34,491 bases of DNA from the NCBI GenBank assembly GCA_017962565.1, contig JAGCVC010000015.1, forward strand, positions 1-34,491, given 5' to 3'. Made by a program: the position numbers and the translations under genes. Below, one piece after another: positions 1 to 25,922 of the stretch. Each line of letters begins with the position of its first letter. Within the stretch, counting starts at the first letter, position 1. Below the pieces are notes generated by a model that was not told the origin of the DNA, did not search any database, and saw only the letters and a program-made list of their open reading frames with translations. The stretch comes from Alphaproteobacteria bacterium. GTDB taxonomy: Bacteria; Pseudomonadota; Alphaproteobacteria; CAAHEQ01; UBA3637.

Positions 1-593
1 AGAATTGTAGCCCCTGCTCTAATAGCTCGTGACACAGCGACCCGTTTGGATTGCCCCAAAGAAACACGAGCTCCCGTTGAGTTCTCACGACCGCCTAAAC
101 CAAAATCGGATAAAACCTTACGAGCATATTCATCCTGCTCTTTTTCTTCCTTTTTGACTTTTGGAAAAAGTGCTAACGCCTTTAGGGGGCTTTCTCCTGT
201 TTGGTTGGGTGAGGCAACCGTAATGTTATCTTTTAAAGTCTGTGTCTTAAACAAACGAACATCTTGCCACATACGCCCCATACCCTCACTGGAAAAGCGT
301 TCGGGTGAAAAATAAGTAAACGGGATAATAGCACGCCAAAAAGGACGAGGAAATAAAAAGTGTTCTACCTGTTGACCTGTTGCTAAAGTAATACGCCCTT
401 TGTCAGGCATCAAGTTCCCCGTTAAAATATTAATCAAAGTTGTTTTACCGGATCCGTTTTCTCCCTGCAACAACATCACTTCACCTTCACGGATTTCAAG
501 GCTGACATCTTTCAAAACTTCATTTCCGTCAAAAGCCTTACGAATATGGCTAGCTTTTAAAAGTATCTTATTTCTCGTTTTTGTTTTTTTCAT
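1..593 (-). CDS. livG: LivG-type ABC transporter ATPase, 3' end cut by window edge
   Basis: Energises a branched-chain amino-acid-type ABC importer on the cytoplasmic face of the inner membrane. The reading frame is open from ATG at 593 to the left edge (197 codons, no stop). Walker A GENGSGKT is at residues 44-51, a Q-loop in MWQDVRLF near 109-115, and the signature appears as VSLGQ at 177-181. The segment before VRLF matches the LivG pattern better than LivF. Walker B and the H-loop lie outside the window. It starts 13 bases after the broken binding-protein gene upstream and is the last visible gene of cluster A. The signature differs from the usual LSGGQ, which is common in LivG. The paired LivF is not seen and should lie to the left. 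Confidence 0.88.
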   Translation of the reverse strand, partial: MKKTKTRNKILLKASHIRKAFDGNEVLKDVSLEIREGEVMLLQGENGSGKTTLINILTGNLMPDKGRITLATGQQVEHFLFPRPFWRAIIPFTYFSPERFSSEGMGRMWQDVRLFKTQTLKDNITVASPNQTGESPLKALALFPKVKKEEKEQDEYARKVLSDFGLGGRENSTGARVSLGQSKRVAVSRAIRAGATI

Positions 594-606
594 CGCTTTT
601 ACTTTC

Positions 607-1668
607 TTATTCTACAGGAACAATTTCTCCATTTTTCCAAACACCCATTTGCATATTCTGATTGCTGTGCCCGTTTTTGTAGAAGTTTACAGTTGTAATA
701 TTTTCATACTTTCCTATTCTTTGAAACTCATCTTGAGTAAAAGGCACTCCATTTCTAAAAGCTTCATCAACATAAGTCAATGCATCATAAGCAATCATAT
801 CAGGATGAGAATTTAAATTTGTTTTATCAAATTTATCTTTATTTATAATTTTTGCAAAAGGAAGATATACTCCCTCTAAAGCACCATCCAATCTGTCATA
901 TGTATCTTTTCTTGCAACTACAGTATCTGAAACGATAAGACCTTCATATTTATACTGTTTTAACAATCTGAAGATATTTTCATACCCTGTTCCATAACCA
1001 ATTACGCCAATAGCATCCGGCTTATAAGATAATGCCTTTTGGACCAAATCTCTTACCTTAAATTCTTGAAGCGGATAGCTGTCAGAAAAAACTATCTTAT
1101 GTTCATCGTCCAAATATTAATCTTTTAAAACTTTAAATCCGCCATCGCCATAGGCATCTCCGACATATAAGACGGCAATTTTTGAAGCTTTTTGCTTTAA
1201 AAAACGTCCCATTGGTTCAAAAATGTCACTTCCCTTTGTGCTAAAATACTGAAAATTTTTCATATTCCCTTTTGCTTCTGGGCTTTGTGTTTCACAATAC
1301 ATTCCCAAGACAAAAATGTCTTTTTTATCAGTAATTGGTAAAATTGCATCAACAACTGTATCAACAAAGGCAACCACCAAATCAATCTTGCGCAATGCTA
1401 ATTGTTGGTGTAAAGCTGAAACAGCTACGCTTGGCATAGCTTGGGTATCAACAGAAATCCAATTAAATGATAAATTCGGATGTTGTTCTTTAAACCTATC
1501 CAAAGCTTTCTTCAAAGCATCTGATGCAGCACCTGCTCCCGTCAAATGGGCCATAACCAAAACATTTGGTTTTTCTTTCGAAATGGCTTGTTTTTCAGAA
1601 ATATTGTATTTATAACCAATCAAACCTATACATATAATAACAAGTAAAGCAATCCATATTTTTTTCAT
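607..1668 (-). pseudogene. Branched-chain amino-acid-type binding protein broken by an in-frame stop
   Basis: A family-typical Peripla_BP_6-like binding protein of about 353 codons is interrupted once. The N-terminal half (1117-1668) has the Lys-rich start, a hydrophobic segment and the first lobe, ending VLKD. A TAA follows at 1117-1119, and the same frame then continues with the second lobe, including the conserved KPDAIGVIGYGTGYENIF stretch, to a normal TAA at 607. No frameshift is present, only the one stop. A TTG at 1111-1113 could let the second half restart, but it would lack a signal sequence. It lies between livM and livG, the same place held by an intact binding protein in cluster B. 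A sequencing error is the main alternative. Confidence 0.85.
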
Positions 1669-1678
1669 TTTATTTCCC

Positions 1679-2578
1679 CTAATCTATTTTGTAGTTACCC
1701 AAAAGTCCGTTTGGTCTGAAACGTACCATCAACACTAACAATAGCCCATAAAGCATAATCCTGACTTCTGCTGCTACCGTATCGGGAATGGACAACATAC
1801 GCAGACATTCCGGCATTGCCAACAATAAGGCTGTTCCAAGCAACGGCCCTATCATGTTACCGCTACCACCGACCAAAACCATTGACAACAACAAAATGGA
1901 TTGATCCATTGTTGCTAAATTCGGATCGATATAAGATACGTAACTGGCATAAACAGCTCCGGCAATTGATGCCATTGTGCAAGCGATTAAAACGGCTTCC
2001 AATTTGAAAAACTGCACTTTTTTACCCAAATTACGAGTAGATAATTCATCATCTCGCATACAATTTAACACGCGCCCCCATGGTGATCTTAACAATGTAC
2101 GCGTCATCCATGCAAAAAACGCCAATAAAACCAAACTGAACGCGGCGATCAAATACATATTATCAAGAGGGAAACCAAACAAAACCGGACGAGGAATACC
2201 CGATATTCCAAATGGTCCATTTGTTAAATTTTCCATAGAACCGACCGGTTCATTAGAGTTCACCCAATTGTACAACATACTGTAAATCAGAACTTGAATA
2301 GCAATTGATGCAACCACAAAGTAATCGCCCTTTAATTTCCAAGTCGGTAATGAAATCAGCAAACTGGATAATGCTCCAAAAACAATTGCAAAGCCAAATG
2401 CTGCTACAGGTGAAAAACCATATGCAAAAGTAGCCAATGCATAAGTATAAGCCCCGCCTGCAAAAAATGCCGCATGAGCCATTGTCATTAAACCACATGC
2501 TCCAACCAAAATATTCAGCGATAAAGCCAATGTTCCGTAAATACCAAAATATGTTAATAAATGATAAAAGTAATTCAT
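1679..2578 (-). CDS. livM: LivM-type ABC transporter permease
   Basis: One of the two membrane subunits that form the translocation path of cluster A. The protein has 299 residues and about eight to ten hydrophobic segments. It carries the family's early GACGLMTMAHAAFFAGGAY stretch (residues 27-45), a cytoplasmic-loop region with WGRVLNCMRDDE, the VGGSGNMIGPLLG loop and the C-terminal RFRPNGLLG. The start overlaps the stop of the preceding binding-protein gene by four bases (ATGA), so translation is probably coupled. It pairs with the LivH at 8043-8915, from which it is separated by five binding-protein genes. Confidence 0.92.
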   Translation of the reverse strand: MNYFYHLLTYFGIYGTLALSLNILVGACGLMTMAHAAFFAGGAYTYALATFAYGFSPVAAFGFAIVFGALSSLLISLPTWKLKGDYFVVASIAIQVLIYSMLYNWVNSNEPVGSMENLTNGPFGISGIPRPVLFGFPLDNMYLIAAFSLVLLAFFAWMTRTLLRSPWGRVLNCMRDDELSTRNLGKKVQFFKLEAVLIACTMASIAGAVYASYVSYIDPNLATMDQSILLLSMVLVGGSGNMIGPLLGTALLLAMPECLRMLSIPDTVAAEVRIMLYGLLLVLMVRFRPNGLLGNYKID

Positions 2579-3672
2579 TTTTCCCCACCTTCTTCCACAG
2601 GAACAAACTTTCCACCTTTTATAACTGACAAAATAAACGGATACGTACTGTTTCCGTTTTCCGTGAAAACAATATCACCGGAAATGCCATGCCATTTCCC
2701 CATTTTCATAAATTCACTTTGATTAAAAGGAATGTTATTTGCAACAAAATAACTGATAACATCCATAATATCCCAAACGTTAATAGGGAATGTATATAAT
2801 TCCAAATCATTTTTCTTCAAAATATCTGCAACTTGAGGATATTCCTGGTAGATACGTTCTGTTGGCATAACAGAAGTATACACACCATCTGCATTGTCTT
2901 CTAACATAGCAACCACAGATGGAGTCCTTAATGCTGCATCGGCCAATATCACCCCAGGATATTCTTGCGTTTTTAATTCTTTAATGACATTTATAAAACC
3001 GATTGTAGGCGGGCTGATTACAAAAATAACGTCCGTTTTATAAGAAATAGCTTTTAAAACAACAATCTTCATATCCAATTCTTTTGTATCAAAGGCCAAT
3101 TTTTCGACAACAACCGCTCCGTTTTTTTCTAATGTTCCCTTGGTTTTATCCGCACCGGTATGACCAGCTGTATCATTTGAATGCATGATAACAACAGTTT
3201 GCCCTTTTTTTACGGAATCAATAAGAGGTTTATTCATATCTGCTGAACCATAGCTGATACGTTGAAATTCTTTATATGTCCCGTCTTCTTCCTGTGTTGA
3301 AGGTGACAAAATCATAAAGCCGTTCATGGCTTTTAACTGTGGAACAATCGGATGACACATACCTCCTGTTGGGCAGATAAAAAGTGGTTGTTTATCTGAC
3401 ATCGCTATGCGTTGCGCTAAAGTTAAACTTTTTGTTGCATCAGATTCATTGTCAAAAAATTCCAATTCAAATGGCGCATCTGGATGGTTTTGCATCCAAA
3501 CTTCCATGGTCTTTTTTTCTTCTTTCCCTTGAAATGACAAATTGCCCGTAACCGGTAAAATTGCATATACTTTCTTTTTTCCGTTGTCCACCCGTTGTTC
3601 GGATCGATAAGCATTATATCCTACAGCAAAAATACACAATGCGATAAATAAAACAATCAAAACTTTTTTCAT
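2575..3672 (-). CDS. Branched-chain amino-acid-type ABC substrate-binding protein
   Basis: Expected to capture a small solute in the periplasm and hand it to LivH/LivM; the ligand is unknown. The protein has 365 residues. MKK is followed by a hydrophobic stretch to about residue 19 with no clear signal-peptidase site or lipobox, so it may stay membrane-tethered. LPVTG (39-43) opens lobe 1. C100 and C106 (C-X5-C) flank the predicted first-lobe ligand loop and recur in the paralog at 4742-5848. The last ~60 residues are almost identical to that paralog. It has ATGA overlaps with both neighbours. The final codons for GGEK supply GGGGAA as the ribosome site of livM. Confidence 0.92.
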   Translation of the reverse strand: MKKVLIVLFIALCIFAVGYNAYRSEQRVDNGKKKVYAILPVTGNLSFQGKEEKKTMEVWMQNHPDAPFELEFFDNESDATKSLTLAQRIAMSDKQPLFICPTGGMCHPIVPQLKAMNGFMILSPSTQEEDGTYKEFQRISYGSADMNKPLIDSVKKGQTVVIMHSNDTAGHTGADKTKGTLEKNGAVVVEKLAFDTKELDMKIVVLKAISYKTDVIFVISPPTIGFINVIKELKTQEYPGVILADAALRTPSVVAMLEDNADGVYTSVMPTERIYQEYPQVADILKKNDLELYTFPINVWDIMDVISYFVANNIPFNQSEFMKMGKWHGISGDIVFTENGNSTYPFILSVIKGGKFVPVEEGGEK

Positions 3673-4745
3673 TTTTCCTCGCTTTCTACCGGAATGACTT
3701 CTTTATTTTGATTAAATTTGAACATCTTTTGTTTTAAAATAGCATCTCTGTCTTTGTCAAAAACAATTTTACCAGTTAAACCATTGAAATTCAGATTTTC
3801 TATTGCCTTGCCTACTTCTTCCGGAGTTTTATCTTTTGCCTGTGCAACGGCTTTCATAAACATATCCATTGTATCGTAAGCATAAAATGTTTCATAACCC
3901 ACAGATATTTTATTGTTGTTTTGGAACATGTTATAATTAGGAATCTCCATTATAAATTCAGGTTGTCTGAAAACGACATCTTTGAGTTGGGAATATGGTA
4001 AATCATTCAACTGCAACGTATTAAAACCTAACAATAACGGAATATTCCATGCTGTATCTTTATGGTGAATGATAGAGCGAAAATGAGGAGCATAACCATT
4101 CACTAAAATGGCTTCTACCTTTTCGCGTTTAATCCTTTCTAACAAAATACGGAAATCTTTTTCATCAGTATTGAATAACTCTTCATAAATTGTGACATCC
4201 GGTAATAAGGCTTGCAGGTGTTTGATGCAACCTTCATAAGTTGCCATCATAGCAGTCAAAACGCCCAATTTTTTGTATCCTTTTTGTTTTACATATTCTG
4301 CGACACCTTCCATTTCCTGAATGGCTGTTGGATAAATCCGATAGGCCAAAGGATAACTTTTTGTTTGATTTGGCATCATGGTAATTGTGAACACAAAAGG
4401 TTTATCCGGTTGTGTTTCTAAAACAGATAGAACAGCATTAGTTTGTGCTGTTGTAGAAGTGTAAAAGAATTTATCACCCATAGCTAAATGTCTTTGTAAA
4501 ATAGTAATGGCCATTGTAGCATTCCCGTGAGTATCTTCAAAAATCAACTCTACATCATCTTTATTCGGGGCGTTTTTATATGCTTCCTCAATGCCCAACT
4601 TTTCTTCTTGTCCTAAATAGCCGACAGAATCAGATAACGGAGCCATCACAACAAAGCGTAATTTTCCAGTGTGTTGTTGTCTGTTAAAGAAAACAACAAA
4701 CCCGATAAAGACGATTAAAAGGATGAAACCAAAAATCTTTTTCAT
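3669..4745 (-). CDS. Branched-chain amino-acid-type ABC substrate-binding protein, divergent member
   Basis: The protein has 358 residues. N-terminal MKK plus a hydrophobic segment to about residue 20 (ending VVFF) is followed by a mature domain that begins FVVMAPLSDSVGYLGQEEK. It is the most divergent binding protein of cluster A: it has neither the GYNAYRSEQ juxtamembrane stretch nor the Cys pair of its neighbours. It carries the EAILVNGYAPHFRSIIHH variant of the usual GYG motif and ends VIPVESEEK. Family assignment rests on length, position, two-lobe layout and the NGLTGKIVFD C-terminal motif. ATGA overlaps join it to the genes on both sides. Its ligand probably differs from theirs. Confidence 0.87.
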   Translation of the reverse strand: MKKIFGFILLIVFIGFVVFFNRQQHTGKLRFVVMAPLSDSVGYLGQEEKLGIEEAYKNAPNKDDVELIFEDTHGNATMAITILQRHLAMGDKFFYTSTTAQTNAVLSVLETQPDKPFVFTITMMPNQTKSYPLAYRIYPTAIQEMEGVAEYVKQKGYKKLGVLTAMMATYEGCIKHLQALLPDVTIYEELFNTDEKDFRILLERIKREKVEAILVNGYAPHFRSIIHHKDTAWNIPLLLGFNTLQLNDLPYSQLKDVVFRQPEFIMEIPNYNMFQNNNKISVGYETFYAYDTMDMFMKAVAQAKDKTPEEVGKAIENLNFNGLTGKIVFDKDRDAILKQKMFKFNQNKEVIPVESEEK

Positions 4746-5848
4746 TTTTCCCCACCATCATCTGCCGGAACAAACTTTCCATCTTTTATAACAGACAAAA
4801 TAAACGGATACGAACTGTTTCCGTTTTCCGTGAAAACAATATCACCGGAAATGCCATGCCATTTCCCCATTTTTATAAATTCACTTTGATTAAAAGGAAT
4901 GTTATTTGCAACAAAATAATTTAAAATATTTAACGTATCCCAAACATTAATTGGGAAATTATACAACTCCAAACCATTATCTGTTAAAGCTTTTGCCACT
5001 TGCGGATATTCTTTATAAATCCGATCCGTTGACATAACAGGAACGTAAATTCCTTGGCTCTCATCTTCTGAAAAAAGTGAAATCAAAGAGGGAGTTCTCA
5101 ATGATGGATCTGCAAATATCATTCCCGGATATTCTTGTTCTTTTAATGTTTTTATTATTTTAACAAATCCCATACTCGGTCCCGCAGTAACAATAATAAC
5201 ATCCGGATTATAAGACATCGCTTTCATAACGATAAGCCTGTTATCTAATTCTTTATGCTCAAAAGCAATTTTTTCAATAATATCGATCCCTTTAGCTTGC
5301 AGATTATCACTGATAAGACGAGAACCACTATGTCCGGTTTCATCGTTTGAATGAATAATTATAACCTTTTGTCCCGGTTTGACGTATTCAATGAATGGTA
5401 AATTCATATCTAGATGGCTAAAGCTAATACGCTGAAAATTTTGAAAATCTTCCGTCTCTGCCCGAGGACTGGGAGATAAAATTAAAAAGCCATTAATAGA
5501 AGGTAAAACAGGAAGTAAAGGACGACACAAACCGGACACTCCGCACATAAAAAGTGGTTGAGTATCGCTAAATGAAATTTGTTTGGCTATGTTTATAGTT
5601 TGATTCGGATCGGATTGATTGTCATAAAATTGAACTTCCATCGGCATATTGGGATGATTCTGAGTATAAACTTCTACTGTCTTTTTTACCTCTTTTCCCA
5701 CTGATGCCATTGTACCTGTTAAAGGTAAAATTGCATATACTTTCTTTTTTCCGTTATCCGCATGCTGCTCGGAACGATAGGCATTATATCCAACCGCAAA
5801 GATACATATAATAACAAATAAAGCAATTAGTATTTTCTTTATCATCAT
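4742..5848 (-). CDS. Branched-chain amino-acid-type ABC substrate-binding protein
   Basis: The protein has 368 residues. It is a close paralog of the protein at 2575-3672: both share the GYNAYRSEQ juxtamembrane stretch, a C-X5-C pair (C102, C108 here), the HSNDxxGHxG segment in the interlobe region and a nearly identical C-terminus (FNQSEFxKMGKWHGISGDIV). Two ATGs stand in tandem; the first (5846-5848) overlaps the upstream TGA and is used here. Its own stop again overlaps the next ATG, and the preceding GGT-GGG-GAA codons form a strong ribosome site. The first-lobe sequence differs clearly from its paralog, so the two may bind different ligands. Confidence 0.92.
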   Translation of the reverse strand: MMIKKILIALFVIICIFAVGYNAYRSEQHADNGKKKVYAILPLTGTMASVGKEVKKTVEVYTQNHPNMPMEVQFYDNQSDPNQTINIAKQISFSDTQPLFMCGVSGLCRPLLPVLPSINGFLILSPSPRAETEDFQNFQRISFSHLDMNLPFIEYVKPGQKVIIIHSNDETGHSGSRLISDNLQAKGIDIIEKIAFEHKELDNRLIVMKAMSYNPDVIIVTAGPSMGFVKIIKTLKEQEYPGMIFADPSLRTPSLISLFSEDESQGIYVPVMSTDRIYKEYPQVAKALTDNGLELYNFPINVWDTLNILNYFVANNIPFNQSEFIKMGKWHGISGDIVFTENGNSSYPFILSVIKDGKFVPADDGGEK

Positions 5849-6948
5849 TTTTTACTTTCTTGTACTGGAAGTATTTTTCCTTCTTTAATTATTGCCATTA
5901 CATACGGATAACTTGTATCCCCTAATTTTGTAAACTTAAACTTACCTGAAATATCATCAAATTCTTTTATTTTTAAGAAATTTTCCTGAGTAAACTCAAT
6001 ATTTTTTGAAATCATATCATCAATCAAAGCGGAAGTTGCATATCCTTCTATCGCCACCCAAGAAGGATATAAATTGTTTTCTTGAGCAAATTTTCTAAAT
6101 TTTCTTCCTGCCTCTGTTTGCGGATCATCCAAATGAGCATCCATCGTCATAAAAATCACATTTTCCGAAACATCTCCCAGAGCATTTAAAACAAAATCTT
6201 GGCCAAAAGTAATTCCGGTAAAAATTTGTCCAGTATAGTTTTGTCTTTTCAATTCTCTAAAAATATTTAAAAATGCAGGAACTGCCGCACCGACAACAAC
6301 AATGGATTCAGGATTTTTTTCTAATATCTTTTGGACAATAATCCGTACATCCGCATTCTTTTCATCATACTCTTCTTGTATAAAATCTATTTCTTCTTTT
6401 AAATTCGTTTTAAAAATATCTCTATTTAAAATACCATATTCACTGTTTGCATAGAACACACCAGCATTTGAATAATGATTGGAAATATAATCAGCTACAT
6501 TTTTCATTTCCTCGCCATTAAGCACTGAAAATACGAGGTAATTATGATAAGCATCTAAACTCTTTGAATGTGCGCCTCCGATAAAAACAGTAAAACCATT
6601 TTGCTTTTCCACAAAAGGAACAATTGCATTACCGACAACCGTCCCGGCAGTCACAACGAGTGGCTTTTCTTCACCTATAACCTTTTGTTGTAATGCTGTA
6701 AGGGATAAAGATCCTTGAAATTGTCCGTCAATGTACACAACATCATACGAAGCATTTGGATGTTGTTTTTGATACAATTGCATTGCTCGTTGCTGTAATT
6801 GCCCACACTGCCCTATCGGTCCTGTCAAAGGTAAAACCGCATAAACCGTTCTTTTTCCAACTACTTTTTGTTTTTCAGATTGGTACGCGTTATATCCGAT
6901 TGCAGAAATACATATTACAATTAATAATCCAATTAATATCTTTTTCAT
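5845..6948 (-). CDS. Branched-chain amino-acid-type ABC substrate-binding protein
   Basis: The protein has 367 residues, with an MKK start, a hydrophobic segment, GYNAYQSEKQ and then YAVLPLTGPIGQCGQ at the start of lobe 1. The typical interlobe motif is present as NPESIVVVGAAVPAFLNIFRELK, and the C-terminal DDISGKFKF block is conserved. The first-lobe ligand loop reads VVTAGTVVGNAIVP, closer to the broken protein at 607-1668 and to 6945-8030 than to the C-X5-C pair. It ends ESKK, so its 3' end gives only a weak AAGAAAG ribosome site for the next gene, unlike the other junctions in this operon. ATGA overlaps occur at both ends. Confidence 0.91.
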   Translation of the reverse strand: MKKILIGLLIVICISAIGYNAYQSEKQKVVGKRTVYAVLPLTGPIGQCGQLQQRAMQLYQKQHPNASYDVVYIDGQFQGSLSLTALQQKVIGEEKPLVVTAGTVVGNAIVPFVEKQNGFTVFIGGAHSKSLDAYHNYLVFSVLNGEEMKNVADYISNHYSNAGVFYANSEYGILNRDIFKTNLKEEIDFIQEEYDEKNADVRIIVQKILEKNPESIVVVGAAVPAFLNIFRELKRQNYTGQIFTGITFGQDFVLNALGDVSENVIFMTMDAHLDDPQTEAGRKFRKFAQENNLYPSWVAIEGYATSALIDDMISKNIEFTQENFLKIKEFDDISGKFKFTKLGDTSYPYVMAIIKEGKILPVQESKK

Positions 6949-8030
6949 TTTTCCCCGCTTTCAATAATATCAAATTGTCCATTTTTAAATGGAATAAGTT
7001 CGTATTCTATCGATGATTTACCATCTCCTAAAAATGTTATATTATTCATTCCGGACCAACTTCCCAATTGTTTAAAAACATTTTGAGTAAATGACAAGTT
7101 ATTTTTCATAAAATAATCTATAATACTTAAAGAGTCATAGGATTGTTTTGTAGTATAAGACAGATATGAATTTTTATTTGCCAATTTCTGTTCAAATTCA
7201 GATAACTGCTTATTATGTATATTTGTTTTACTGATGATGGCTTCTACATCCATATTCAAATCTTTTACAACTTCATTTAAAAATTTATTTTCAAAAGCCA
7301 AGTCCGCTATAATTCTTCCGGAAAAATTATTCTTTAATTCTTTTAAAACATTTTGATACATAATACCTGGTGTCATTAAAATAACAACGGCATCGGGGTT
7401 ATTCATCAGTAATTTTTGTGTTTCCAGACGAATATCCTGTTGATTAGCGGGAAAAGCAACAGAGTAAACCTGAATATCTGAATTTAAATGTTTTATCAAA
7501 TAATTTTTTTGTTGTTCTCCAAATTCATCCAAGCTCGAAACAATAGCAACAGATTGGTAATTTTGGTTAATTTTATTCGCAATCGGTTGCACGACATCAT
7601 TTAAAGAATAGCTTAAATTCTGAGCATTAGAATATCCTTCAACAATGGGATTGAATGTAATAATGGAAAAATTAAATCCTTCACGATTTTTCATAACAGG
7701 AAATACAACATTAGCAAAAATACTTCCGATTGTTATGGTGATTGGATGATCATCATTTATTGTTTTTTGTTGAATTCCGGTAACCGCCTTATCCGGACGA
7801 CTTTCATTATCTACATAAACCAAATCAAAAGAAGCATCCGGATGCATTTCCATCCAACTGTCCATAGCCGCTTTTACATGCTTTCCTGCCTCTGCAATTG
7901 GACCAGTCAGTTGAACAACAACATAAACTTTTCTTTTTCCTTCATTTACTTGTTGTTTTGATTGGTAGGCATTATACCCCACCGCAACTACACATATAAT
8001 AACAAATAAAACAATCAAAACTTTTTTCAT
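6945..8030 (-). CDS. Branched-chain amino-acid-type ABC substrate-binding protein, first of the cluster A series
   Basis: The protein has 361 residues and is the first of five binding proteins after livH, 12 bases downstream of it. The N-terminus (MKKVLIVLFVIICVVAVGYNAYQSKQQ) is of the cluster A type. Lobe 1 opens VVVQLTGPIAEAGK and is followed by a TITIGSIFANVVFP ligand loop. The usual glycine-rich interlobe motif is altered to DAVVILMTPGIMYQNVLKELK, and the C-terminal region (SWSGMNNITF) is weakly conserved, so it is a diverged member. It ends ESGEK; the GGG-GAA codons serve as the ribosome site of the next gene, whose ATG overlaps the stop. Confidence 0.9.
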   Translation of the reverse strand: MKKVLIVLFVIICVVAVGYNAYQSKQQVNEGKRKVYVVVQLTGPIAEAGKHVKAAMDSWMEMHPDASFDLVYVDNESRPDKAVTGIQQKTINDDHPITITIGSIFANVVFPVMKNREGFNFSIITFNPIVEGYSNAQNLSYSLNDVVQPIANKINQNYQSVAIVSSLDEFGEQQKNYLIKHLNSDIQVYSVAFPANQQDIRLETQKLLMNNPDAVVILMTPGIMYQNVLKELKNNFSGRIIADLAFENKFLNEVVKDLNMDVEAIISKTNIHNKQLSEFEQKLANKNSYLSYTTKQSYDSLSIIDYFMKNNLSFTQNVFKQLGSWSGMNNITFLGDGKSSIEYELIPFKNGQFDIIESGEK

Positions 8031-8042: not shown

Positions 8043-8915
8043 TTACTTCTCTTCGGCTTCCAAACGGGTTTGACCACCTAATAATCCGTTTGGACGGAAC
8101 AACAAGAAACCTGCTAAAATCACAAAAGTAATCGTATCTTGCCAACGTGCTGACCAAAGCCACACAACTTCCGCACGTAACAAACCTAATATCAACCCAC
8201 CGAGCAAAGTACCGATAAAACTTTTCTTACCTCCGATAATTGTTGCAATTACGGCCAACAAAAAAGCATTCATACCGACGTAAGGGTCAAATCCCAAATC
8301 ATATGCTGACAATATACCGGCAAAACCGCCCATAGCACCAGACAATGCAAAAGACAAAAGTCTTAAATGGTTGATATCGTATCCCAACAACGCCATTTGT
8401 GTAGGGTTATCAGCAAGTCCTCGAAAAAACAAACCTAAGTTACTTCTTTTCAACCACAGGAAAAATCCGCCAACAACCAAGGATGCTCCCAGCAAGTTAA
8501 TAATCTGAGATAAAGCAATCGTTAAATCACCAATGTGGTAAGTTGTATCTATACCTGTTTTTAAGATTTTTGGCTCATTTCCCCAAATAATAGCAATCGT
8601 TTGAACCATAATCATGTAAATACCCAAACTGGAAATCAAATGTGAACCATGCGAAGCATTATGCTTTGTTAAAATTCTGTGATTTAACAATTCACAAAGA
8701 ACAGAGATCACGGCTCCGGCAACAACGCTGATAACAATTGCCCAAGTCACCGAAAAACCGCTTTTTATCATTTGCCATGTCAAATACGCACAGCCGACAT
8801 AAATCCCGGATAAAGAAATATAAAAGATTTTTGTTGGCACATACACAACCGTGTATGCTATTGCAAGCAATGCAATTACCATTCCATTACAAAGTCCGTT
8901 TAGTAATATTTGCAT
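8043..8915 (-). CDS. livH: LivH-type ABC transporter permease, first gene of the cluster A operon
   Basis: The protein has 290 residues and about eight hydrophobic segments. It forms the membrane channel with LivM. The N-terminal LLNGLCNGMVIALLAIAYTVVY, the cytoplasmic RGLADNPTQMALLGYD loop (about 165-180), the ALSGAMGGFAGIL segment and the C-terminal FRPNGLLGG are LivH hallmarks. AGAGG precedes the ATG by about eight bases, and a consensus promoter (8958-8986) stands just upstream. It is therefore the head of an operon that runs through five binding proteins, livM, the broken binding protein and livG. Confidence 0.93.
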   Translation of the reverse strand: MQILLNGLCNGMVIALLAIAYTVVYVPTKIFYISLSGIYVGCAYLTWQMIKSGFSVTWAIVISVVAGAVISVLCELLNHRILTKHNASHGSHLISSLGIYMIMVQTIAIIWGNEPKILKTGIDTTYHIGDLTIALSQIINLLGASLVVGGFFLWLKRSNLGLFFRGLADNPTQMALLGYDINHLRLLSFALSGAMGGFAGILSAYDLGFDPYVGMNAFLLAVIATIIGGKKSFIGTLLGGLILGLLRAEVVWLWSARWQDTITFVILAGFLLFRPNGLLGGQTRLEAEEK

Positions 8916-15896: not shown

Positions 15897-15907
15897 ACAC
15901 AAAAATA

Positions 15908-17792: not shown

Positions 17793-18662
17793 TCACTTTA
17801 CCGTGTAACTGCCCTTTAATCCGTTAGGTCTGTAATACATCAGCACGATTAAGATCGTACCATACACAATTTCACGAATGTTTGCTGCTATTTCATCCGG
17901 AAAACCAAGAAAACGCAGTCCCTCTGGAAATAATATCATAAAGATAACACCCAAAAACGGTCCAAGCAAATTTCCGGAACCACCAACAAACAAAATGCAC
18001 ATGATAAACATACTTTCAGATAACGAAAAAGATGTCGGATCAATATAAGTAACATAACTGGCAAACAAGCAACCGGCAAAACCCGCCAACGCTGCGGAAA
18101 TAACAAAAGCACGTGTCAATTGTTTTTGCGGGGAAATACACAAAGTTTCAGCCGCTTTTTCATTATCACGAATAGCTTTTAATGACAAACCGAAAGGACT
18201 TTTGCCCAATATTCCGACAATGTATGTAATCAATAATGCTGCTATAATTCCCAAAATGGTAAATTGTTCCATTTTAGTAAAATAAAATCCGAAAAATTCC
18301 GGTTTGGGTATTTCTTGAATTCCGTAAGAGCCCTTTGTGACACTTTCCCAGTTATCCAAAATAGAAAATATAATCATTTGAAACCCGAGTGTCGTTAAAA
18401 CAAAGGTTTCTCCTCGAAACTTTAAGGTTGCCTTTGATAAAATCCATCCGATTAATCCCGAAAAGACGATAGCCAGTAAACAACACGCGGAAAATCCCAA
18501 GTTAAAATGCATCGCAAGTAATGCATAAGCATAAGCTCCTATACCGTAAAAAGCCGCATGCCCCATACTCATTAAACCACCAAATCCCGTAATCAGGTTC
18601 ATGGAATAAACCAGCACCAGATAAATGCAAATCATCATCATTAAATGTAATCCGTATGCCAT
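17793..18662 (-). CDS. livM: LivM-type ABC transporter permease
   Basis: The protein has 289 residues and about eight to ten hydrophobic segments. ITGFGGLMSMGHAAFYGIGAY is the conserved early segment; KSPFGLSLKAIRDNEKAAE is the cytoplasmic coupling loop, more canonical than in cluster A; FVGGSGNLLGPFLG and the C-terminal YYRPNGLKGSY are also typical. It abuts livG (18663) with no gap, so the two are surely co-translated. It partners LivH at 25041-25922. Confidence 0.93.
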   Translation of the reverse strand: MAYGLHLMMMICIYLVLVYSMNLITGFGGLMSMGHAAFYGIGAYAYALLAMHFNLGFSACCLLAIVFSGLIGWILSKATLKFRGETFVLTTLGFQMIIFSILDNWESVTKGSYGIQEIPKPEFFGFYFTKMEQFTILGIIAALLITYIVGILGKSPFGLSLKAIRDNEKAAETLCISPQKQLTRAFVISAALAGFAGCLFASYVTYIDPTSFSLSESMFIMCILFVGGSGNLLGPFLGVIFMILFPEGLRFLGFPDEIAANIREIVYGTILIVLMYYRPNGLKGSYTVK

Positions 18663-19442
18663 CTATTTATCCTTTCCTAACCCAATATAAATTCGCTTAA
18701 CTTCACTATTGTTCAACACTTTTTTTGCAGAGCCGTGTAAATAAACTTGTCCTTCATTTAAAAAGTAAATGTAATCGGATAATTTTCTGACAACCTGCAT
18801 ATTATGTTCAATTAACCCAACGGAAATATTACGTTCTTTAACCAAATTTTTGATTAAAGTCGTCATTTGCTCTACCATAACAGGTGACAAACCGGAAGTC
18901 GGTTCATCTAGCAAAATATAGCGCGGTTCACGTGCCATAATACGAGCTAAGGCAATCAACTTTTGCTGTCCGTAAGACATCTTTTCGACTTTTTTATTGG
19001 CAAATTCGCTTAATCCTATCTTTTCCAAATAATATAAAGCTTCAGCTTTATGCTTGATTAAAAAGTCTTTTAAACAATAAAAATGCGTAAAAGTCCACCA
19101 AGGAGTTTTTTCATGCTTTTCCATCAATGCAACCAATATGTTTTCTATTGCAGACATATCTGAAAAGACACGCAAGTCTTGGAACATTTGCGTCAATCCT
19201 AAATGGGCCATTTCAAAAGGTTTCAAACCAGTAACGTTTTTTTTGCCCATAAAAATCTTTCCCTTATCGGCCGACAAATTACCCGTAATGATATGAAACA
19301 ACGTTGTTTTACCAGCTCCGTTTGGACCAACAAAAGCCGTTATCATACCCGGTTTAATTTGAGCATGGATGTCTTTTAAAATTTCGACTTCCCCAAATTT
19401 TTTATAAATACCGTCAATGCTTAAAACGTTGTTATCTTCCAT
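18663..19442 (-). CDS. livG: LivG-type ABC transporter ATPase
   Basis: The protein has 259 residues. Walker A GPNGAGKT is at 39-46, the LivG hallmark LTQMFQDLRVFSDMSAIENILVA around 83-105, signature MSYGQQ at 155-160, Walker B YILLDEP at 175-181 and the H-loop histidine at 213. Length and the long helical insertion before the signature fit LivG rather than LivF. It starts three bases after the binding protein 19446-20576 and directly precedes livM. In cluster A the corresponding gene sits after livM instead. Confidence 0.94.
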   Translation of the reverse strand: MEDNNVLSIDGIYKKFGEVEILKDIHAQIKPGMITAFVGPNGAGKTTLFHIITGNLSADKGKIFMGKKNVTGLKPFEMAHLGLTQMFQDLRVFSDMSAIENILVALMEKHEKTPWWTFTHFYCLKDFLIKHKAEALYYLEKIGLSEFANKKVEKMSYGQQKLIALARIMAREPRYILLDEPTSGLSPVMVEQMTTLIKNLVKERNISVGLIEHNMQVVRKLSDYIYFLNEGQVYLHGSAKKVLNNSEVKRIYIGLGKDK

Positions 19443-19445: not shown

Positions 19446-20576
19446 CTACTCTTTCACTATTTTTGCTGTTCCATCCTGTTGCATTTGCTTTATGGCCAAT
19501 GGCGCATGTGCTTCACGCCCTCCATCATATCCAAATTTTCCCACCATTGTTGGTTTATTATTAAAACCGGACAATTTTAAACGAACTGATTCTGTTGTTT
19601 GAGGCTGCGAAGAAATAATTGCTTCTGCTAATAACTTTAACGATTCATAAGAAAATCCATGAATAGCTACAGCCGGTTTTCCACGTTGTTCTTTATATTT
19701 TGTAGCAAAATCAGAGTAGCCTTGATAGTTTGAATCAATAATCGGTTCAACAAAATAAACACCGGCGGCATTATTTGCTACATGTTCATAAGTATTCGGA
19801 AAAGATATGGCCGTTTCCGAAAGAATGGGCTTGTCATAGCCGGTTTCCATAATTTGGTTGATAACAGCTGCTAAACCAGCTCCGAAACCAAAGACAACAA
19901 TAGAATCCGGTTTCTTATCCAGTACTTTTGCCACAAAGGAACGAACATCCCGTGAATCTTGAGGATATGTTTCCTGTATCACAATTTTACCACCATTATT
20001 CTGATAAGCTTTAGTAAACCCATCAGCACCCTCTTTTCCATAGTTATTGTTGATTCTCATAACGGCTGTATTTTGAATTTTTAAATCATCCGATAAGAAA
20101 TCCGCCAAAGCCTTAGTAGAATAACTGGTCGAAATCCATGAACGGAATACCCAATCAGATAGTTGGGTAACATTATCCGCGGCAGCAATGCCCATAACAA
20201 GCGTTTTGTTTTCCTTTGTTAAAGGGGCCAAAACATAACTGGGATTATCACCATAAACAACAAAGTATTTAATACCTTCACCGGCCAATTTATGGTATGC
20301 GGAAATAGTGGCTTGCGAATCATATTTCCCATCTTCCATGGATAATTTTACAGGTGTTTGTGAATGTTGCCTGTTAAAATCATCTACAGCGATTTTTAAA
20401 CATGCTAAAACATCTTTGCCTTCTTCACCATAAATTCCGCTCATTGGTAAAATTGCCCCAATTTTTATGGTGTTGTCAACTCGTTCTGCTGTCTTTTGAG
20501 ATTGCAAGTACCATGCGCGGCCACCAAACATGACCACTAATACAACAATCACCAAAATCCAAATTACTTTTTTCAC
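19446..20576 (-). CDS. Branched-chain amino-acid-type ABC substrate-binding protein (subgroup III), fifth after livH
   Basis: The protein has 376 residues with a GTG start. The upstream gene's TAA together with GGAA just before the GTG forms the ribosome site. The anchor ends FGGRAWYLQSQKTAE. IGAILPMSGIYGEEGKD opens lobe 1. FVVYGDNPSYVLAPLTKE is the ligand loop, and KPDSIVVFGFGAGLAAVINQI the interlobe motif. MRINNNYGKEGADGF aligns with the IKNNYGDD segment of the neighbours 20581, 22794 and 23904. It is followed by livG. Confidence 0.92.
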   Translation of the reverse strand: MKKVIWILVIVVLVVMFGGRAWYLQSQKTAERVDNTIKIGAILPMSGIYGEEGKDVLACLKIAVDDFNRQHSQTPVKLSMEDGKYDSQATISAYHKLAGEGIKYFVVYGDNPSYVLAPLTKENKTLVMGIAAADNVTQLSDWVFRSWISTSYSTKALADFLSDDLKIQNTAVMRINNNYGKEGADGFTKAYQNNGGKIVIQETYPQDSRDVRSFVAKVLDKKPDSIVVFGFGAGLAAVINQIMETGYDKPILSETAISFPNTYEHVANNAAGVYFVEPIIDSNYQGYSDFATKYKEQRGKPAVAIHGFSYESLKLLAEAIISSQPQTTESVRLKLSGFNNKPTMVGKFGYDGGREAHAPLAIKQMQQDGTAKIVKE

Positions 20577-20580: not shown

Positions 20581-21672
20581 TTATTCCCTTACAATTTTTG
20601 TTGTACCATCCGGTTGCATTTGTTTAATAAGCAATTTGGGAAAAATAATCTCCCTTTTCTCATCATAACTGATTTTACCCAAAGGTGTATCAAAGTTTTT
20701 GATATTCAAAAGTGCTTGACGTATACTATCAGCACCATTATCAGAAGCATTTTTAATTGCCTCAGCCAATAATAACGTACCAATATACGCGAACATCGCG
20801 TGCAAGCTCATCTTATTATTCGGATCTAAAAAATCCCACGTCGTAGAAGTAAAGTAAACATCGGCACCTTTACTTTTCCAAATAGCATAATCCACCATAG
20901 CATCCGGAGTGGTCAAAATTGCGCCGGAATAGCCTTGTTCCTTCAATGTATCGATTGCAGCCGCCACTCCATGTTCAAATCCAAAAACAACGACAGCTTT
21001 TGGATTTTTATCTATAATCTTGGCAACTTGTGATTTAACATCTGTGTCAGAAATAGAAAAACTTTCCGTCAAAACAACTTTACCTTCTAAATTTGCATAT
21101 GCTTGTGAAAAATTATCTTCATAATCATCACCAAACTGGTTTTTAATCTTAAATATAGCTACTTCATTTACCCCTAAATCATTTTTAATAAAATCGGCCA
21201 ATAAGTCAGCCTGCGGTTTTACGTAAATCCACCCCCGAAACATCCAATTACTTAAACTTGGAATTTCTGTATTTGCAGCAGAAGTTGCAATAGTAGGAAT
21301 TTTGGCTTGTTCGACAAGTGGTGCTAAAGTTAAGACGGGAACACTTCCCATTATAATAAGTCCCTGTATTTCATCATTTAAGGCTTTTTTGAAGGCACTT
21401 AAAGAATCCTTTGCTAGAAACTTATGATCTTGAACAGATAACTTGATTTTAAAGCCATATTCCGGTTTGTTATTTATTTCTTTAACTGCCTCTTGGGCGC
21501 CCGAAAGAGCCTCTTTCCCAGAGGGCGAAGAAAAACCACTTAAGTCACTTAAAAAACCAATTTTAATAATCCTATCCGTTTCACTTTTTGTCTGCTTGCG
21601 CAAGTAATATGCTCGTCCACCGAACACGGCAACTAAAACAACAATACATAAACCAACTATAATTTTTTTCAT
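20581..21672 (-). CDS. Branched-chain amino-acid-type ABC substrate-binding protein (subgroup III), fourth after livH
   Basis: The protein has 363 residues. The anchor MKKIIVGLCIVVLVAVFGGRAYYLRKQ is nearly the same as in 21677-22789. The mature part opens IGFLSDLSGFSSPSGKEA; the ligand loop is IIMGSVPVLTLAPLVEQ. KNQFGDDYEDNFSQAY and NPKAVVVFGFEHGVAAAI are subgroup III features. The glycine of the usual GYG motif is replaced (FEHG), and the FRGWIYVKPQADLL stretch is close to that of 14727-15836. It ends IKQMQPDGTTKIVRE. It lies four bases from both neighbours. Confidence 0.92.
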   Translation of the reverse strand: MKKIIVGLCIVVLVAVFGGRAYYLRKQTKSETDRIIKIGFLSDLSGFSSPSGKEALSGAQEAVKEINNKPEYGFKIKLSVQDHKFLAKDSLSAFKKALNDEIQGLIIMGSVPVLTLAPLVEQAKIPTIATSAANTEIPSLSNWMFRGWIYVKPQADLLADFIKNDLGVNEVAIFKIKNQFGDDYEDNFSQAYANLEGKVVLTESFSISDTDVKSQVAKIIDKNPKAVVVFGFEHGVAAAIDTLKEQGYSGAILTTPDAMVDYAIWKSKGADVYFTSTTWDFLDPNNKMSLHAMFAYIGTLLLAEAIKNASDNGADSIRQALLNIKNFDTPLGKISYDEKREIIFPKLLIKQMQPDGTTKIVRE

Positions 21673-21676: not shown

Positions 21677-22789
21677 TTATTCCTTTACTATTTTTGCTGT
21701 TCCATCCGGTTGAAGCTGTTTAATAACAATCGGCAATTTCATCCATTTATTCTTATCAATGGTCACAGGTCCTAACACTGTTTTCAAATCTTTTGTTTGT
21801 TGGATGTTGTTATAAATGTCCATAGGTTTATATTCGGCTGTTTGAATAGCATTCATAAGAGCCTGTGCTCCGACATAACTCATCATGGTAAAAGTAGATG
21901 GTTTTTTACCGAATTTTTCTTTGAATTCAGCCAAGAATTCTTTAATTTCAGGTATGTCTGTATTGTCATCAAACAATGTGTCTGTCCAATATAACGGATA
22001 AGGTGTCTTTGCCAATTCATGTTTAATGGAAGAAACATTCGGATCTGATACAATTGTGCCTGTAAAACCTTGTTCCCGTAACGTGTTTAAAATGGCTGTA
22101 TAAGTTGAACCATATCCCAACACAATCACAACATCCGGTTTATAGCTCAACACTTTTGATACCAAAGGTCTGACTTCCATTACATTGGGGTCAAATTGTT
22201 CTGAATTAATAACTTGAACGGTATCTTTGAACTTGTCTTTCAAACGTTTTGTTGATTCCACATGTGCCATATCTTTTTGATGAACAATAACTACATTTTG
22301 CGGTTTTAACATCTCATTTACAAAGCTGAAAATACTGTCCGTCCAATCTGTGCTAGATGGGCTCAAATTAACCACAACTGGACTGTCATTCAATTCTTTT
22401 GATTCAGCCATGGCGAACAAAGGCAATTTTTGTTCTTGTGCAATAGACACAATGGCTTTTGCAGGTAAATCACCATAGACAAAATACAAGTCTACCCCTT
22501 GTGATTGCAACTTACGGAAAGCGGAAACAGAATCTTTGGAAGTATATTTATCATCTTCATATATAACTTTAATTTTCACATCCCGTTTTGCGTTCATTTT
22601 TTCTGCCAACAAATTTAACGCACTTACAACATTCTTACCTTCAAAAGCCATAAAACCGGAAGTCGGAACAAGTGCTCCAATCTTCACCACATTGGTATCA
22701 GTTTCGCGGTGTTGGTAAAGCCACAAAGCACGACCACCGAACACGGCAATTAAAACAACAATACATAAACCAACTATAATTTTTTTCAT
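21677..22789 (-). CDS. Branched-chain amino-acid-type ABC substrate-binding protein (subgroup II), third after livH
   Basis: The protein has 370 residues. The anchor MKKIIVGLCIVVLIAVFGG is followed by RALWLYQHRE and IGALVPTSGFMAFEGKN. The ligand loop VDLYFVYGDLPAKAIVSI and the VLGYGSTYTAILNTLREQGF interlobe motif are well kept. The YWTDTLFDDN segment and VLGPVTI block make it the partner of 13617-14723. It ends IKQLQPDGTAKIVKE, and the AAG-GAA-TAA codons double as the next gene's ribosome site. Confidence 0.92.
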   Translation of the reverse strand: MKKIIVGLCIVVLIAVFGGRALWLYQHRETDTNVVKIGALVPTSGFMAFEGKNVVSALNLLAEKMNAKRDVKIKVIYEDDKYTSKDSVSAFRKLQSQGVDLYFVYGDLPAKAIVSIAQEQKLPLFAMAESKELNDSPVVVNLSPSSTDWTDSIFSFVNEMLKPQNVVIVHQKDMAHVESTKRLKDKFKDTVQVINSEQFDPNVMEVRPLVSKVLSYKPDVVIVLGYGSTYTAILNTLREQGFTGTIVSDPNVSSIKHELAKTPYPLYWTDTLFDDNTDIPEIKEFLAEFKEKFGKKPSTFTMMSYVGAQALMNAIQTAEYKPMDIYNNIQQTKDLKTVLGPVTIDKNKWMKLPIVIKQLQPDGTAKIVKE

Positions 22790-22793: not shown

Positions 22794-23900
22794 TTATTCC
22801 TTTATAACCTTTGCTGCACCATTCGATTGCATTTGTTTGATAATAACCGGCGGATGCGGTTCACCATCCTTATCATACCCGATTATTCCCATCACTGTTT
22901 TAAAATTTTGAATATCATAGAACCCTTGATTTAAATCTGTTTTATTTTCAAGCGCTTTCATTAAAACATCAACAGTCACATAAGACAAAACTGCAAAAAC
23001 ATCCGGATCAGATCCAATCTTAGCACGATATCTTTCCAAATAGCGCGGACTCATCTGATCAACTCTGTAATCACCAATTGCAAAATAGGTTCCCTCTGCT
23101 TGATTATAAATATTTTTCCAAACAGCTTCATCCGTGACGGTATGATCTGTAATAAAATCACCCTTATATCCTCGTTCGGCCAATTGATTAAAAGCAGCAT
23201 TATATCCGGGACCGAAACCAAACATTCCAATCAGTTGTGGTTTTTCATCTAAAATTTTTAAAGCCTGTGCTCGAACATCCATATCCCCGATATTATAACT
23301 CTCTTCAATTAAAATCTTACCACCCAATGCTGTATAATACTTTTGAAATTCGTTGCTGAAGTCATCTCCATAGTTATTTTTAACTTTAAAAATAGCCATT
23401 TCCGTTTGCTTCATATCATGAAACACAAAGTCTGCTATTTTTTTTACCAAGTCTGTTGTTGAAGTACAAACCCGGAACATATACGGACTTTTTGACGGAA
23501 GTTGTGAATCACCCAGAGCCAATGCAATTGTAGGCACCTTTGTTTCATTAATCAATGGTAGCAAACCAAACGCCGGCAAATCACCAAAAACAATATAAGC
23601 ATCTGGATTAGATGTTTTTAACTTATTAAATGCGGAAATACTGTCTTTGACTGTGTACCTGCCATCCTCAAAAAGATACTGAATTTTATAAGGTTTATCA
23701 GCGGTCAGTTCTTCTGTTGCAATTTTTAATGTCGTAACAACACGATTTGTCAGATTTTCATCAAATCCCGACAAAGGAACAACAACTCCAATTTTGATAG
23801 CATCTTTATTTTGCTCTGCTTGTTGGTGCAGATACCACATACGACCACCGAATACGGCAATCAAAACAACTACAAACAAACCAACAAGTATTCTTTTCAC
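22794..23900 (-). CDS. Branched-chain amino-acid-type ABC substrate-binding protein (subgroup III), second after livH
   Basis: The protein has 368 residues with a GTG start at 23898-23900. The ribosome site AAGGA comes from the last codons of the gene upstream. The anchor ends FGGRMWYLHQQAEQN. IGVVVPLSGFDENLTNR, the ligand loop YIVFGDLPAFGLLPLI and the interlobe motif LIGMFGFGPGYNAAFNQL are present. FKVKNNYGDDFSNEFQKYY puts it in subgroup III, closest to 23904-25028. The C-terminus is IKQMQSNGAAKVIKE. Confidence 0.92.
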   Translation of the reverse strand: MKRILVGLFVVVLIAVFGGRMWYLHQQAEQNKDAIKIGVVVPLSGFDENLTNRVVTTLKIATEELTADKPYKIQYLFEDGRYTVKDSISAFNKLKTSNPDAYIVFGDLPAFGLLPLINETKVPTIALALGDSQLPSKSPYMFRVCTSTTDLVKKIADFVFHDMKQTEMAIFKVKNNYGDDFSNEFQKYYTALGGKILIEESYNIGDMDVRAQALKILDEKPQLIGMFGFGPGYNAAFNQLAERGYKGDFITDHTVTDEAVWKNIYNQAEGTYFAIGDYRVDQMSPRYLERYRAKIGSDPDVFAVLSYVTVDVLMKALENKTDLNQGFYDIQNFKTVMGIIGYDKDGEPHPPVIIKQMQSNGAAKVIKE

Positions 23901-23903
23901 TTT

Positions 23904-25028
23904 TTATTCCTTCACTATTTTTGCCGTCCCATCCGCTTGCATTTGTTTAATGGATAAAGAATCTAAATATAATTCTCCGTCCGCATTAAATGTGACTTTT
24001 CCCATAACGGTATCAAAATCTTTAAGAGATAAAAGGGCTCTTCTGATTCCCTCTGGTTCAGTTCCTCCACGCCTTATGGCCTCTGTTAAAACCTGCATTG
24101 TCATCAAAGTAAAAGCTGTAAAAATATCAGGTTCTTCTTGAATAGCTTTTTGATACCTACCCTTAAAAGTCGGAAGTTGTTCAAAACCATATTCAGCCGT
24201 TGCAAAATAACACCCTTCTGCATTGTTGGTAATGTGGCTATATACTTCGGTATCCATAATGGCGCTTTCCGTCAAAACAATACCTTCATAAGCATTTTCC
24301 TTTAACTGATTAAATGCGGCAATATATCCTGTTCCTGATCCAGTGATAAAAACAGCTTTCGGATTTGTGTTCAAAATTTTAGCAATTTGCGGACGAACAT
24401 CCAAAGAATCCATGGCATAGCTTTCATTTATCAAAACTTTTCCACCACCTTGTTCAAATTTTTCAATAAAGGTATTGGCCATATCATCACCATAGTTGTT
24501 TTTAATTCTTAAAATTGCAACCGTATCTGCACCTTTATCTAACAAGAACTTGCTATTCTTTTCGGCCAACACATTATTTGCATGAAATGCCCTAAACAGA
24601 TAAGGATTGTTTTTTGTAATATCTGCCGTTCCTGTAATCAAAGCAATTGTTGGAATTTTATTTTCCTTGATACGAGTTTTTAATCCATACACAGGAACAT
24701 CCCCCAAAACGATGATTGCATTTGGTTTATCCGTTATCAGTTTGTTAAAAGCGGATAAACTGTCTTTGACCGTATATTTGCCATCTTCTAGCTGATAAGA
24801 AATACACTGATTTTCCAACAAGTTTTCGGCTTCAATTATGTCTTTTGCAACATTTAAAGTGGCAACAATCTTCTTATTGCTATCGGACACAATTCCACTC
24901 ATTGGCAACACTGCACCAATCTTCACGATGTCGTCTCCTGTTTCTTTATGTTGATAGAGCCACCATGCCCGTCCACCAAAGACAGCTATTAAAACCACGA
25001 CACATAAACCGATTATAATTTTTTTCAT
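23904..25028 (-). CDS. Branched-chain amino-acid-type ABC substrate-binding protein (subgroup III), first after livH
   Basis: The protein has 374 residues and follows livH by 12 bases, the same spacing as in cluster A. The anchor MKKIIIGLCVVVLIAVFGG is followed by RAWWLYQHKE and IGAVLPMSGIVSDSNKK. The ligand loop is IIVLGDVPVYGLKTRIKE, with ILRIKNNYGDDMANTFIEKF and NPKAVFITGSGTGYIAAFNQL further on. It is closest to 22794-23900. It ends IKQMQADGTAKIVKE. The ribosome site AAGGAATAAAAGA follows the livH stop. Confidence 0.92.
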   Translation of the reverse strand: MKKIIIGLCVVVLIAVFGGRAWWLYQHKETGDDIVKIGAVLPMSGIVSDSNKKIVATLNVAKDIIEAENLLENQCISYQLEDGKYTVKDSLSAFNKLITDKPNAIIVLGDVPVYGLKTRIKENKIPTIALITGTADITKNNPYLFRAFHANNVLAEKNSKFLLDKGADTVAILRIKNNYGDDMANTFIEKFEQGGGKVLINESYAMDSLDVRPQIAKILNTNPKAVFITGSGTGYIAAFNQLKENAYEGIVLTESAIMDTEVYSHITNNAEGCYFATAEYGFEQLPTFKGRYQKAIQEEPDIFTAFTLMTMQVLTEAIRRGGTEPEGIRRALLSLKDFDTVMGKVTFNADGELYLDSLSIKQMQADGTAKIVKE

Positions 25029-25040
25029 TCTTTTATTCCT

Positions 25041-25922
25041 TTATTTTTCTTCCAAACGTTTGCTGTTTCCGATTAATCCAGATGGTTTAAATAACAAAAC
25101 AAAAATCAAAATAATGAAAGTCACCATACTGACCCATTCACCGGAAAATTTCCAACTGACAATGCTTTGGCACAATGCTAAAATGAAGGCACCTAATCCC
25201 CAACCCCAATATTTATCTATACCACCAAAAAATACGGCCACAGAAGCTGTTAATAAATAAGACATACCGACATGAGGTTCTATACCGACATCATACGCGA
25301 TTAATGCCGCCGGAAGTGCTATCATCAAAGAACTGACAGCAATGATTAACTGTCTGATTTTTTGCAAAGGCAATCCCATTACGGGAACCAACCGTGGTTG
25401 ATCACCCATAGCCCAGGCTACTTTAAAATAAGGATTTTTACGTATCAACAATCCTAAAATCACAAAAGCAGAAGCACAAATTAAAAATTCATACAGTTGA
25501 ATTCTGGTTACCTTTAATCCATAGAAAATATATGTAGGCTCTAAATCAACAGAAATACTTTTTACATTATTGCCAAAAAGCAACGCAATTGTATTTTCGA
25601 TAATAATCATGACACCCAAAGAAGCCAACATTACTACACCGGATGTTGATTTTTTCTTTGCAAAAGGATAATAAACACAACTTTCTAAAATGGCGCCGGC
25701 AATAAGAGTAGCAAGTAAAGTCAAACCGGCGGCAATGGGGGTTGAAAGGTGCAGCAATGCTACAAAAGTATAAAAAAAGTATCCGACTAAAATGAACATA
25801 CCACCCAGGGCGATATGAAAAATACGCAACGACCTGTATACCAACCCAAAAGCAACAGCCATACACGCGACAAGCGCCCCTTGAACCAAGCCATTGATAA
25901 GAAGTTGCAATAATAATATCAT
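25041..25922 (-). CDS. livH: LivH-type ABC transporter permease, first gene of cluster B operon
   Basis: The protein has 293 residues with about eight hydrophobic segments. LLINGLVQGALVACMAVAFGLVYRSLRIFHIA at the start, GVMIIIENTIALLFGN, the GMSYLLTASVAVFFGGIDK loop and FKPSGLIGNSKRLEEK at the end are LivH features. The coupling loop (MGDQPRLVPVMGLPLQKIRQL) is less canonical than in the cluster A protein, so the two LivH are not recent copies. AAGGGG stands nine bases before the ATG and a promoter at 25957-25986. The operon runs on to livF. Confidence 0.93.
   Translation of the reverse strand: MILLLQLLINGLVQGALVACMAVAFGLVYRSLRIFHIALGGMFILVGYFFYTFVALLHLSTPIAAGLTLLATLIAGAILESCVYYPFAKKKSTSGVVMLASLGVMIIIENTIALLFGNNVKSISVDLEPTYIFYGLKVTRIQLYEFLICASAFVILGLLIRKNPYFKVAWAMGDQPRLVPVMGLPLQKIRQLIIAVSSLMIALPAALIAYDVGIEPHVGMSYLLTASVAVFFGGIDKYWGWGLGAFILALCQSIVSWKFSGEWVSMVTFIILIFVLLFKPSGLIGNSKRLEEK

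Follow-up and report, generated by a model that had tools for sequence, protein, structure and literature searches.

The DNA analysed here (the window: bases 1-34491 of contig C5, in the 1.34 Mb genome of an alphaproteobacterial rumen bacterium, 21 contigs, 97% complete) carries an array of genes for Liv-type substrate-binding proteins (SBPs), which probably act as receptors for two Liv-type importers, A and B. Sixteen SBP genes were found, 15 of them intact, almost all on the minus strand and running from position 25922 down to 1. In a Pfam scan of the window, PF13458 was matched by the 15 intact open reading frames (ORFs) and by the N-terminal half of the gene at 607-1668. The window also encodes two LivH-like and two LivM-like permeases (PF02653) and three ATPase genes. 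An earlier reading made from the letters alone, hereafter the sequence-only reading, had listed 16 SBP genes (15 intact), two LivH, two LivM, two LivG and one LivF, and the Pfam scans agreed with it in both counts and coordinates. The genes are given below from right to left, A-type and B-type referring to two kinds of N-terminal segment (the anchor) that precede the ligand-binding core.

25041-25922, minus strand, LivH-like permease of importer A (PF02653; NCBIfam LivH/UrtB below cut-off)
23904-25028, minus strand, SBP1, A-type anchor, core matching a gene from another genus at 95% identity (PF13458; apparent core transfer)
22794-23900, minus strand, SBP2, A-type, structure modelled with AlphaFold2 (AF2) (PF13458)
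21677-22789, minus strand, SBP3, A-type (PF13458)
20581-21672, minus strand, SBP4, A-type (PF13458)
19446-20576, minus strand, SBP5, A-type (PF13458)
18663-19442, minus strand, LivG-like ATPase of importer A (ABC_tran; LivG the best match, below cut-off)
17793-18662, minus strand, LivM-like permease of importer A (PF02653; LivM the best match, below cut-off)
16649-17782, minus strand, SBP6, A-type (PF13458)
15908-16645, minus strand, LivF/UrtE-like ATPase of importer A (ABC_tran)
14727-15902, minus strand, SBP7, A-type, probable true start at 15836 from the anchor alignment (PF13458)
13617-14723, minus strand, SBP8, A-type (PF13458)
12440-13603, minus strand, SBP9, A-type (PF13458)
9039-10160, minus strand, SBP10, B-type anchor, just upstream of operon B (PF13458)
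8043-8915, minus strand, LivH-like permease of importer B (PF02653)
6945-8030, minus strand, SBP11, B-type (PF13458)
5845-6948, minus strand, SBP12, B-type, structure modelled with AF2 (PF13458)
4742-5848, minus strand, SBP13, B-type (PF13458)
3669-4745, minus strand, SBP14, B-type, the most divergent core, a long branch in the tree (PF13458)
2575-3672, minus strand, SBP15, B-type (PF13458)
1679-2578, minus strand, LivM-like permease of importer B (PF02653; LivM the best match, below cut-off)
607-1668, minus strand, SBP16, interrupted by one in-frame TAA (PF13458 in the N-terminal half)
1-593, minus strand, start of the importer B ATPase, LivG-like, cut by the contig end (ABC_tran; a dual-domain fusion in relatives)

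Operon A (25922-12440) has the order LivH, SBP1-5, LivG, LivM, SBP6, LivF, SBP7-9. Operon B, together with SBP10 just upstream, runs from about 10160 to 1 and has the order LivH, SBP11-15, LivM, SBP16 and an ATPase that leaves the contig end. Junctions inside both operons were mostly 0-15 bp, or 4-bp ATGA overlaps, and the junction DNA was a repeated sequence. Importer A brings together two PF02653 permeases, two ATP-binding cassette (ABC) ATPase domains and PF13458 SBPs, the composition of a Liv/HAAT-type transporter. Every NCBIfam cut-off for the E. coli-type branched-chain amino acid Liv equivalogs was missed by a wide margin (LivM 171 bits vs 366, LivG 192 vs 362 and SBP9 56 vs 477), and the Liv gene names used here denote best matches only. 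The importer B ATPase of two relatives is a single protein of 505-534 residues with two ABC_tran domains (L048:3487-5088, L053:13125-14639), and the apparently absent LivF of importer B is probably fused to LivG. The SBP-bearing start of contig C12 was considered as a continuation of the left end of the window and rejected, no ATPase remainder being encoded there. The TAA in SBP16 could reflect either a true pseudogene or an assembly error.

Genome-wide, PF13458 gave 32 matches, with one gene matched twice and one match LppC-like. Combining the profile with a reading of the loci gave 31 SBP genes: nine in A, seven in B and 15 scattered outside the window as singles, pairs or triplets amid unrelated genes. 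Hence 16 of the 31 lie in or beside transporter operons. By the terms of the sequence-only reading, a separate permease for each SBP elsewhere in the genome would have contradicted it, but a genome-wide profile search found no PF02653 permease beyond the four in the window. The closest named genomes by LivM were the alphaproteobacterial metagenome-assembled genomes (MAGs) RGIG10246 (from yak rumen) and SIG60, here G014 and G021. Besides the genome analysed here, two rumen MAGs had the same four-permease set, 30 and 19 PF13458 matches and a similar two-locus layout; since both repeat the layout, the arrangement of many receptors around two importers is well supported. The earlier proposal that many receptors share common channels is strengthened by these results, the sharing itself being what we infer from them.

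Among 43 genomes of the order, PF02653 was present in six, which carried 32, 30, 19, 9, 3 and 3 PF13458 matches, whereas the other 37 had 0-2 each. At least three matches were thus present in 6 of 6 permease-bearing genomes and in 0 of 37 others, indicating an association of SBPs and permeases beyond chance. The probability of this split is about 1 in 6 million if the genomes are independent, a figure that overstates the evidence because four of the six belong to one genus. Unlike this genome, the other alphaproteobacteria sampled had roughly as many PF02653 permeases as SBPs among the matches listed.

Two further observations were made in the order. The single PF13458 gene of most members was LppC-like in both genomes checked (L003:6665-8281, L069:3357-4802) and was therefore not counted as an SBP; such genes are a trap when SBPs are counted by PF13458. 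In G010, of another genus, eight SBPs are kept and the only LivH is broken by an internal TAG (L055:1-3419), so that the locus looks like a decaying copy of the SBP/importer system.

The A-family profile matched solved Liv proteins, the best being 3td9 (E ~1e-42). The AF2 model of SBP2 (pLDDT 89) had a type-I fold, with a TM score of 0.82 to 3td9. Pockets were compared over eight cleft-lining loops, placed by sequence homology and not from a ligand-bound structure. Identity in these loops was about 0.29 among paralogs of one genome and 0.91-0.98 between close orthologs, in which the loops were more conserved than the remaining core. This difference indicates that the paralogs have different, maintained pockets; identical pocket residues across paralogs would have contradicted the sequence-only reading.

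In the hidden Markov model alignment to 3td9, a 3-residue gap was present at the loop where the carboxylate-binding Ser (LIVBP Ser79) would be expected, and no conserved Thr was found at a second site (LIVBP Thr102), the loops varying between paralogs. In R. palustris, most Liv-type (COG0683) SBPs, which are of the same family as those described here, bound ligands other than branched-chain amino acids (PMC3223731). Taken together, the gap at the Ser loop and the R. palustris ligands make it plausible that the ligands of the array need not be branched-chain amino acids.

The N-termini were surveyed in 77 SBPs from three full genomes. All 77 begin with one strongly hydrophobic segment (17-residue hydropathy mean 2.38, minimum 1.85). 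A pattern search after this segment found a lipobox in 0 of 77 and an AxA cleavage site in 0 of 77. In the AF2 model of SBP2 the N-terminal segment was one continuous helix (residues 2-31), and each SBP probably keeps its N-terminal helix uncleaved and is held by it at the inner membrane. Two anchor types were distinguished, the A type with FGGRAWYL in operon A genes, and the B type with NWKSIVGW or GYNAYQ in operon B and the scattered genes; the split by system was complete. Among system A paralogs identity was 0.59-0.64 in the anchor vs 0.27-0.30 in the core, and the cores of paralogs sharing an anchor were 21-30% identical.

Anchors and cores differed in their relationships between genomes. 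All 31 reciprocal-best core pairs between genomes stayed within A or within B. The best paralog of the same genome was at least as close as the ortholog in 87% of comparisons for the anchor, and in 3-24% for ten core slices. When genome labels were permuted, the genome signature of the anchors was equalled in 3 of 5000 (A) and 0 of 5000 (B) permutations; by the same procedure no signature was detected in any A core slice or in the tails. The anchor tree required 23 changes of genome label vs 35.6 after shuffling (0 of 1000 shuffles as low), and the core tree 40 vs 35.5. These comparisons argue that the anchors follow genome and locus, and that the cores have other histories.

One clear case was SBP1: in a comparison with a gene from another genus, its core showed 95% protein identity and 92% DNA identity. 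For the same pair of genomes, protein identity was 66% in the SBP1 anchor, 62-67% in the four importer A subunits and 72% in RpoA. Codon identity at shared residues was 0.81 in the SBP1 core, 0.42-0.48 in the four importer A subunits and 0.54 in rpoA. The step in identity sits at the boundary of anchor and core, and again in the final codons, and the core of SBP1 is accordingly read as one transferred between genera. For SBP2, the cores of this genome (G000) and G021 were closest (0.82), above those of G014 and G021 (0.63) although the latter two are congeners; in the anchor, G014 and G021 came together (0.84 vs 0.56). The G021 gene L053_6317 has a core within the A clade (SH-aLRT 99), carries a B anchor and is sited in locus B, which identifies it, by phylogeny and position, as a chimera of A core and B anchor.

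The possibility that a conserved tail forms a second protein tag was rejected. The tail was not genome-specific, and its closing sequences, aaaggaataa among them, probably serve the following gene as a ribosome-binding site. As the last codons overlap this site, caution is needed in reading the tail as a tag.

We consider it likely, with a probability of roughly 0.7, that these genes encode a receptor array for importers A and B, built of tethered SBPs with modular evolution of core and anchor. About 30 intact type-I SBPs (15 in the window and 15 elsewhere) would bind different small molecules, each delivering its ligand to one of only two LivHM channels. The uncleaved helix would tether each SBP to the inner membrane, and its two types, which match the two importers, may hold the SBP near its importer or dock on it. 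The core would diverge and be exchanged between species, with the anchor kept similar within genome and locus, and the function would be uptake rather than sensing. It is possible, though we hold it to be tentative and rather doubtful, that the N-terminal transmembrane helix is a transporter-specific address tag, by which any core on a local anchor joins the local importer, specificities spread as exchangeable cores, and each importer becomes an uptake hub with about 15 inputs.

Tethering and sharing could also hold if the anchors did no docking and were similar only as a side effect of homologous recombination between similar gene ends that shuffles the cores. The repeated junction DNA would favor such exchange, and in some pairs the anchor DNA is 85-92% identical while the cores are at 37-50%, a sign of recent conversion or of recombination at the 5' end. 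The scattered genes outside the operons nevertheless have the same anchor type, and the A/B split leaves no exceptions. Moreover, codon identity in most A anchors does not exceed background (0.51-0.53), yet the protein is conserved, so that selection on the protein is the better reading for them, and recent gene conversion as the sole source of anchor similarity was rejected. A by-product of recombination therefore appears somewhat unlikely.

A more ordinary explanation is a scavenging expansion, in which soluble, cleaved SBPs share two importers and the conserved N-termini are signal peptides left from duplication. Several SBPs per ABC importer, and large SBP expansions, are known (PMC3223731, PMC5994714), and the A-type anchors contain G-R-A, which might act as a weak cleavage site. 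Against this, neither an AxA site nor a lipobox was found in the 77 proteins, whereas other exported proteins of the same genome end, by eye, in normal cleavage motifs such as AMA or SYA. Leftovers of duplication should also diverge at least at the rate of the core, but conservation is about two times higher in the anchor, which is also genome-specific. We regard this explanation as improbable. That most SBPs signal their ligands to sensor proteins rather than importers is very improbable: other bacteria do have SBPs that activate sensor kinases (PMC11113362) and 15 SBP genes lie away from permeases, but in the 43 genomes SBPs and permeases occur together or are missing together, just over half of the SBP genes lie within or next to a transporter operon, and the signalling domain of methyl-accepting chemotaxis proteins (PF00015) had 0 matches in G000, G014, G021 and G001, a search that did not extend to histidine kinases. 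Since this domain is lacking in the four genomes, a chemotactic role was rejected as unlikely; of the "modular sensing or uptake array" proposed in the sequence-only reading, modularity and uptake are kept.

Several observations weigh against the tethered, modular array as we propose it. Some B core slices showed a weak genome signature (67-900 of 5000 permutations), and there was just a single chimera and a single clear core transfer. Recent gene conversion could be demonstrated for some anchor pairs only, and the identity values of individual pairs are noisy because the anchors are short (about 32 residues). The G-R-A of the A type might be a weak signal peptidase I site. Finally, a gap in these fragmented MAGs could conceal another permease, although three assemblies agree.

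The sharing of one importer has precedents. LivJ and LivK both use LivHMGF. So-called orphan SBPs serve distant ABC importers, and the sharing of an importer by several SBPs is established (Thomas 2010, as cited in PMC3223731). The array resembles these systems in having several SBPs per importer and SBP genes away from the permease; it differs in that they usually have one or few SBPs per importer, compared with about 15 here, and standard soluble SBPs. In Bordetella and Rhodoplanes, the Bug/TctC SBPs of tripartite tricarboxylate transporters reach 434, with tandem arrays of up to nine (PMC5994714). They are similar in the lineage-specific growth of one SBP family, partly as tandem divergent paralogs. 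However, they belong to another SBP and transporter family and an 8.2 Mb genome, duplication is preferred over horizontal transfer by the authors, and the parts of the article consulted describe neither a system-specific anchor nor mosaicism of core and anchor.

The variable lipoproteins of Mycoplasma have a constant N-terminal export segment, a variable mature part and recombination, and they switch surface antigens. The array would resemble them in the first three of these features, but no switching machinery or silent cassettes were seen in it. In the literature searched, which leaves most subscription journals outside, no description was found of SBPs that are anchored and swap their cores, or of this set of genes in these bacteria. 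Receptor sharing and SBP expansion are already known, and the anchored, exchangeable arrangement of SBPs in a genome of 1.3 Mb appears to be a new version of them. If the proposal is true, this would be a compact natural example in which one ABC importer is fed by many receptors, the swappable membrane anchor would offer an answer to how orphan SBPs find the right importer, and gut bacteria would have a possible route for trading nutrient specificities. The two importers and the roughly 30 receptors, whose pockets differ, also form a natural test set.

The sites of the scattered SBP genes were compared with the SBP-free congener G001. Most flanks were not syntenic, homology ended about 120 bp (rpsM) and 16 bp (L009) from the SBP side, and the comparison revealed neither a clean empty site nor a target duplication. 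Three SBPs lie upstream of rpsM in this genome (L002:6269-9731). The rpsM-adk gap of the ribosomal operon holds an unrelated ORF in G001 (L074:3629-4600) and no insertion in G014 and G021. A scan of viral contigs detected no relatives of the A family.

Operons A and B are separated at 10284-12377 by a subtilase-like ORF, which has no obvious signal peptide, and by a gene for an alpha/beta hydrolase. The region 29837-34491 is a block of lower G+C content (26-28% in 30-34 kb). It contains an ORF at 32307-33299 with an HUH-like HLHIIL motif and no Pfam or PHROG match, a tyrosine integrase at 29837-31021 and a serine recombinase at the window end, and is probably a mobile element beside the SBP array.

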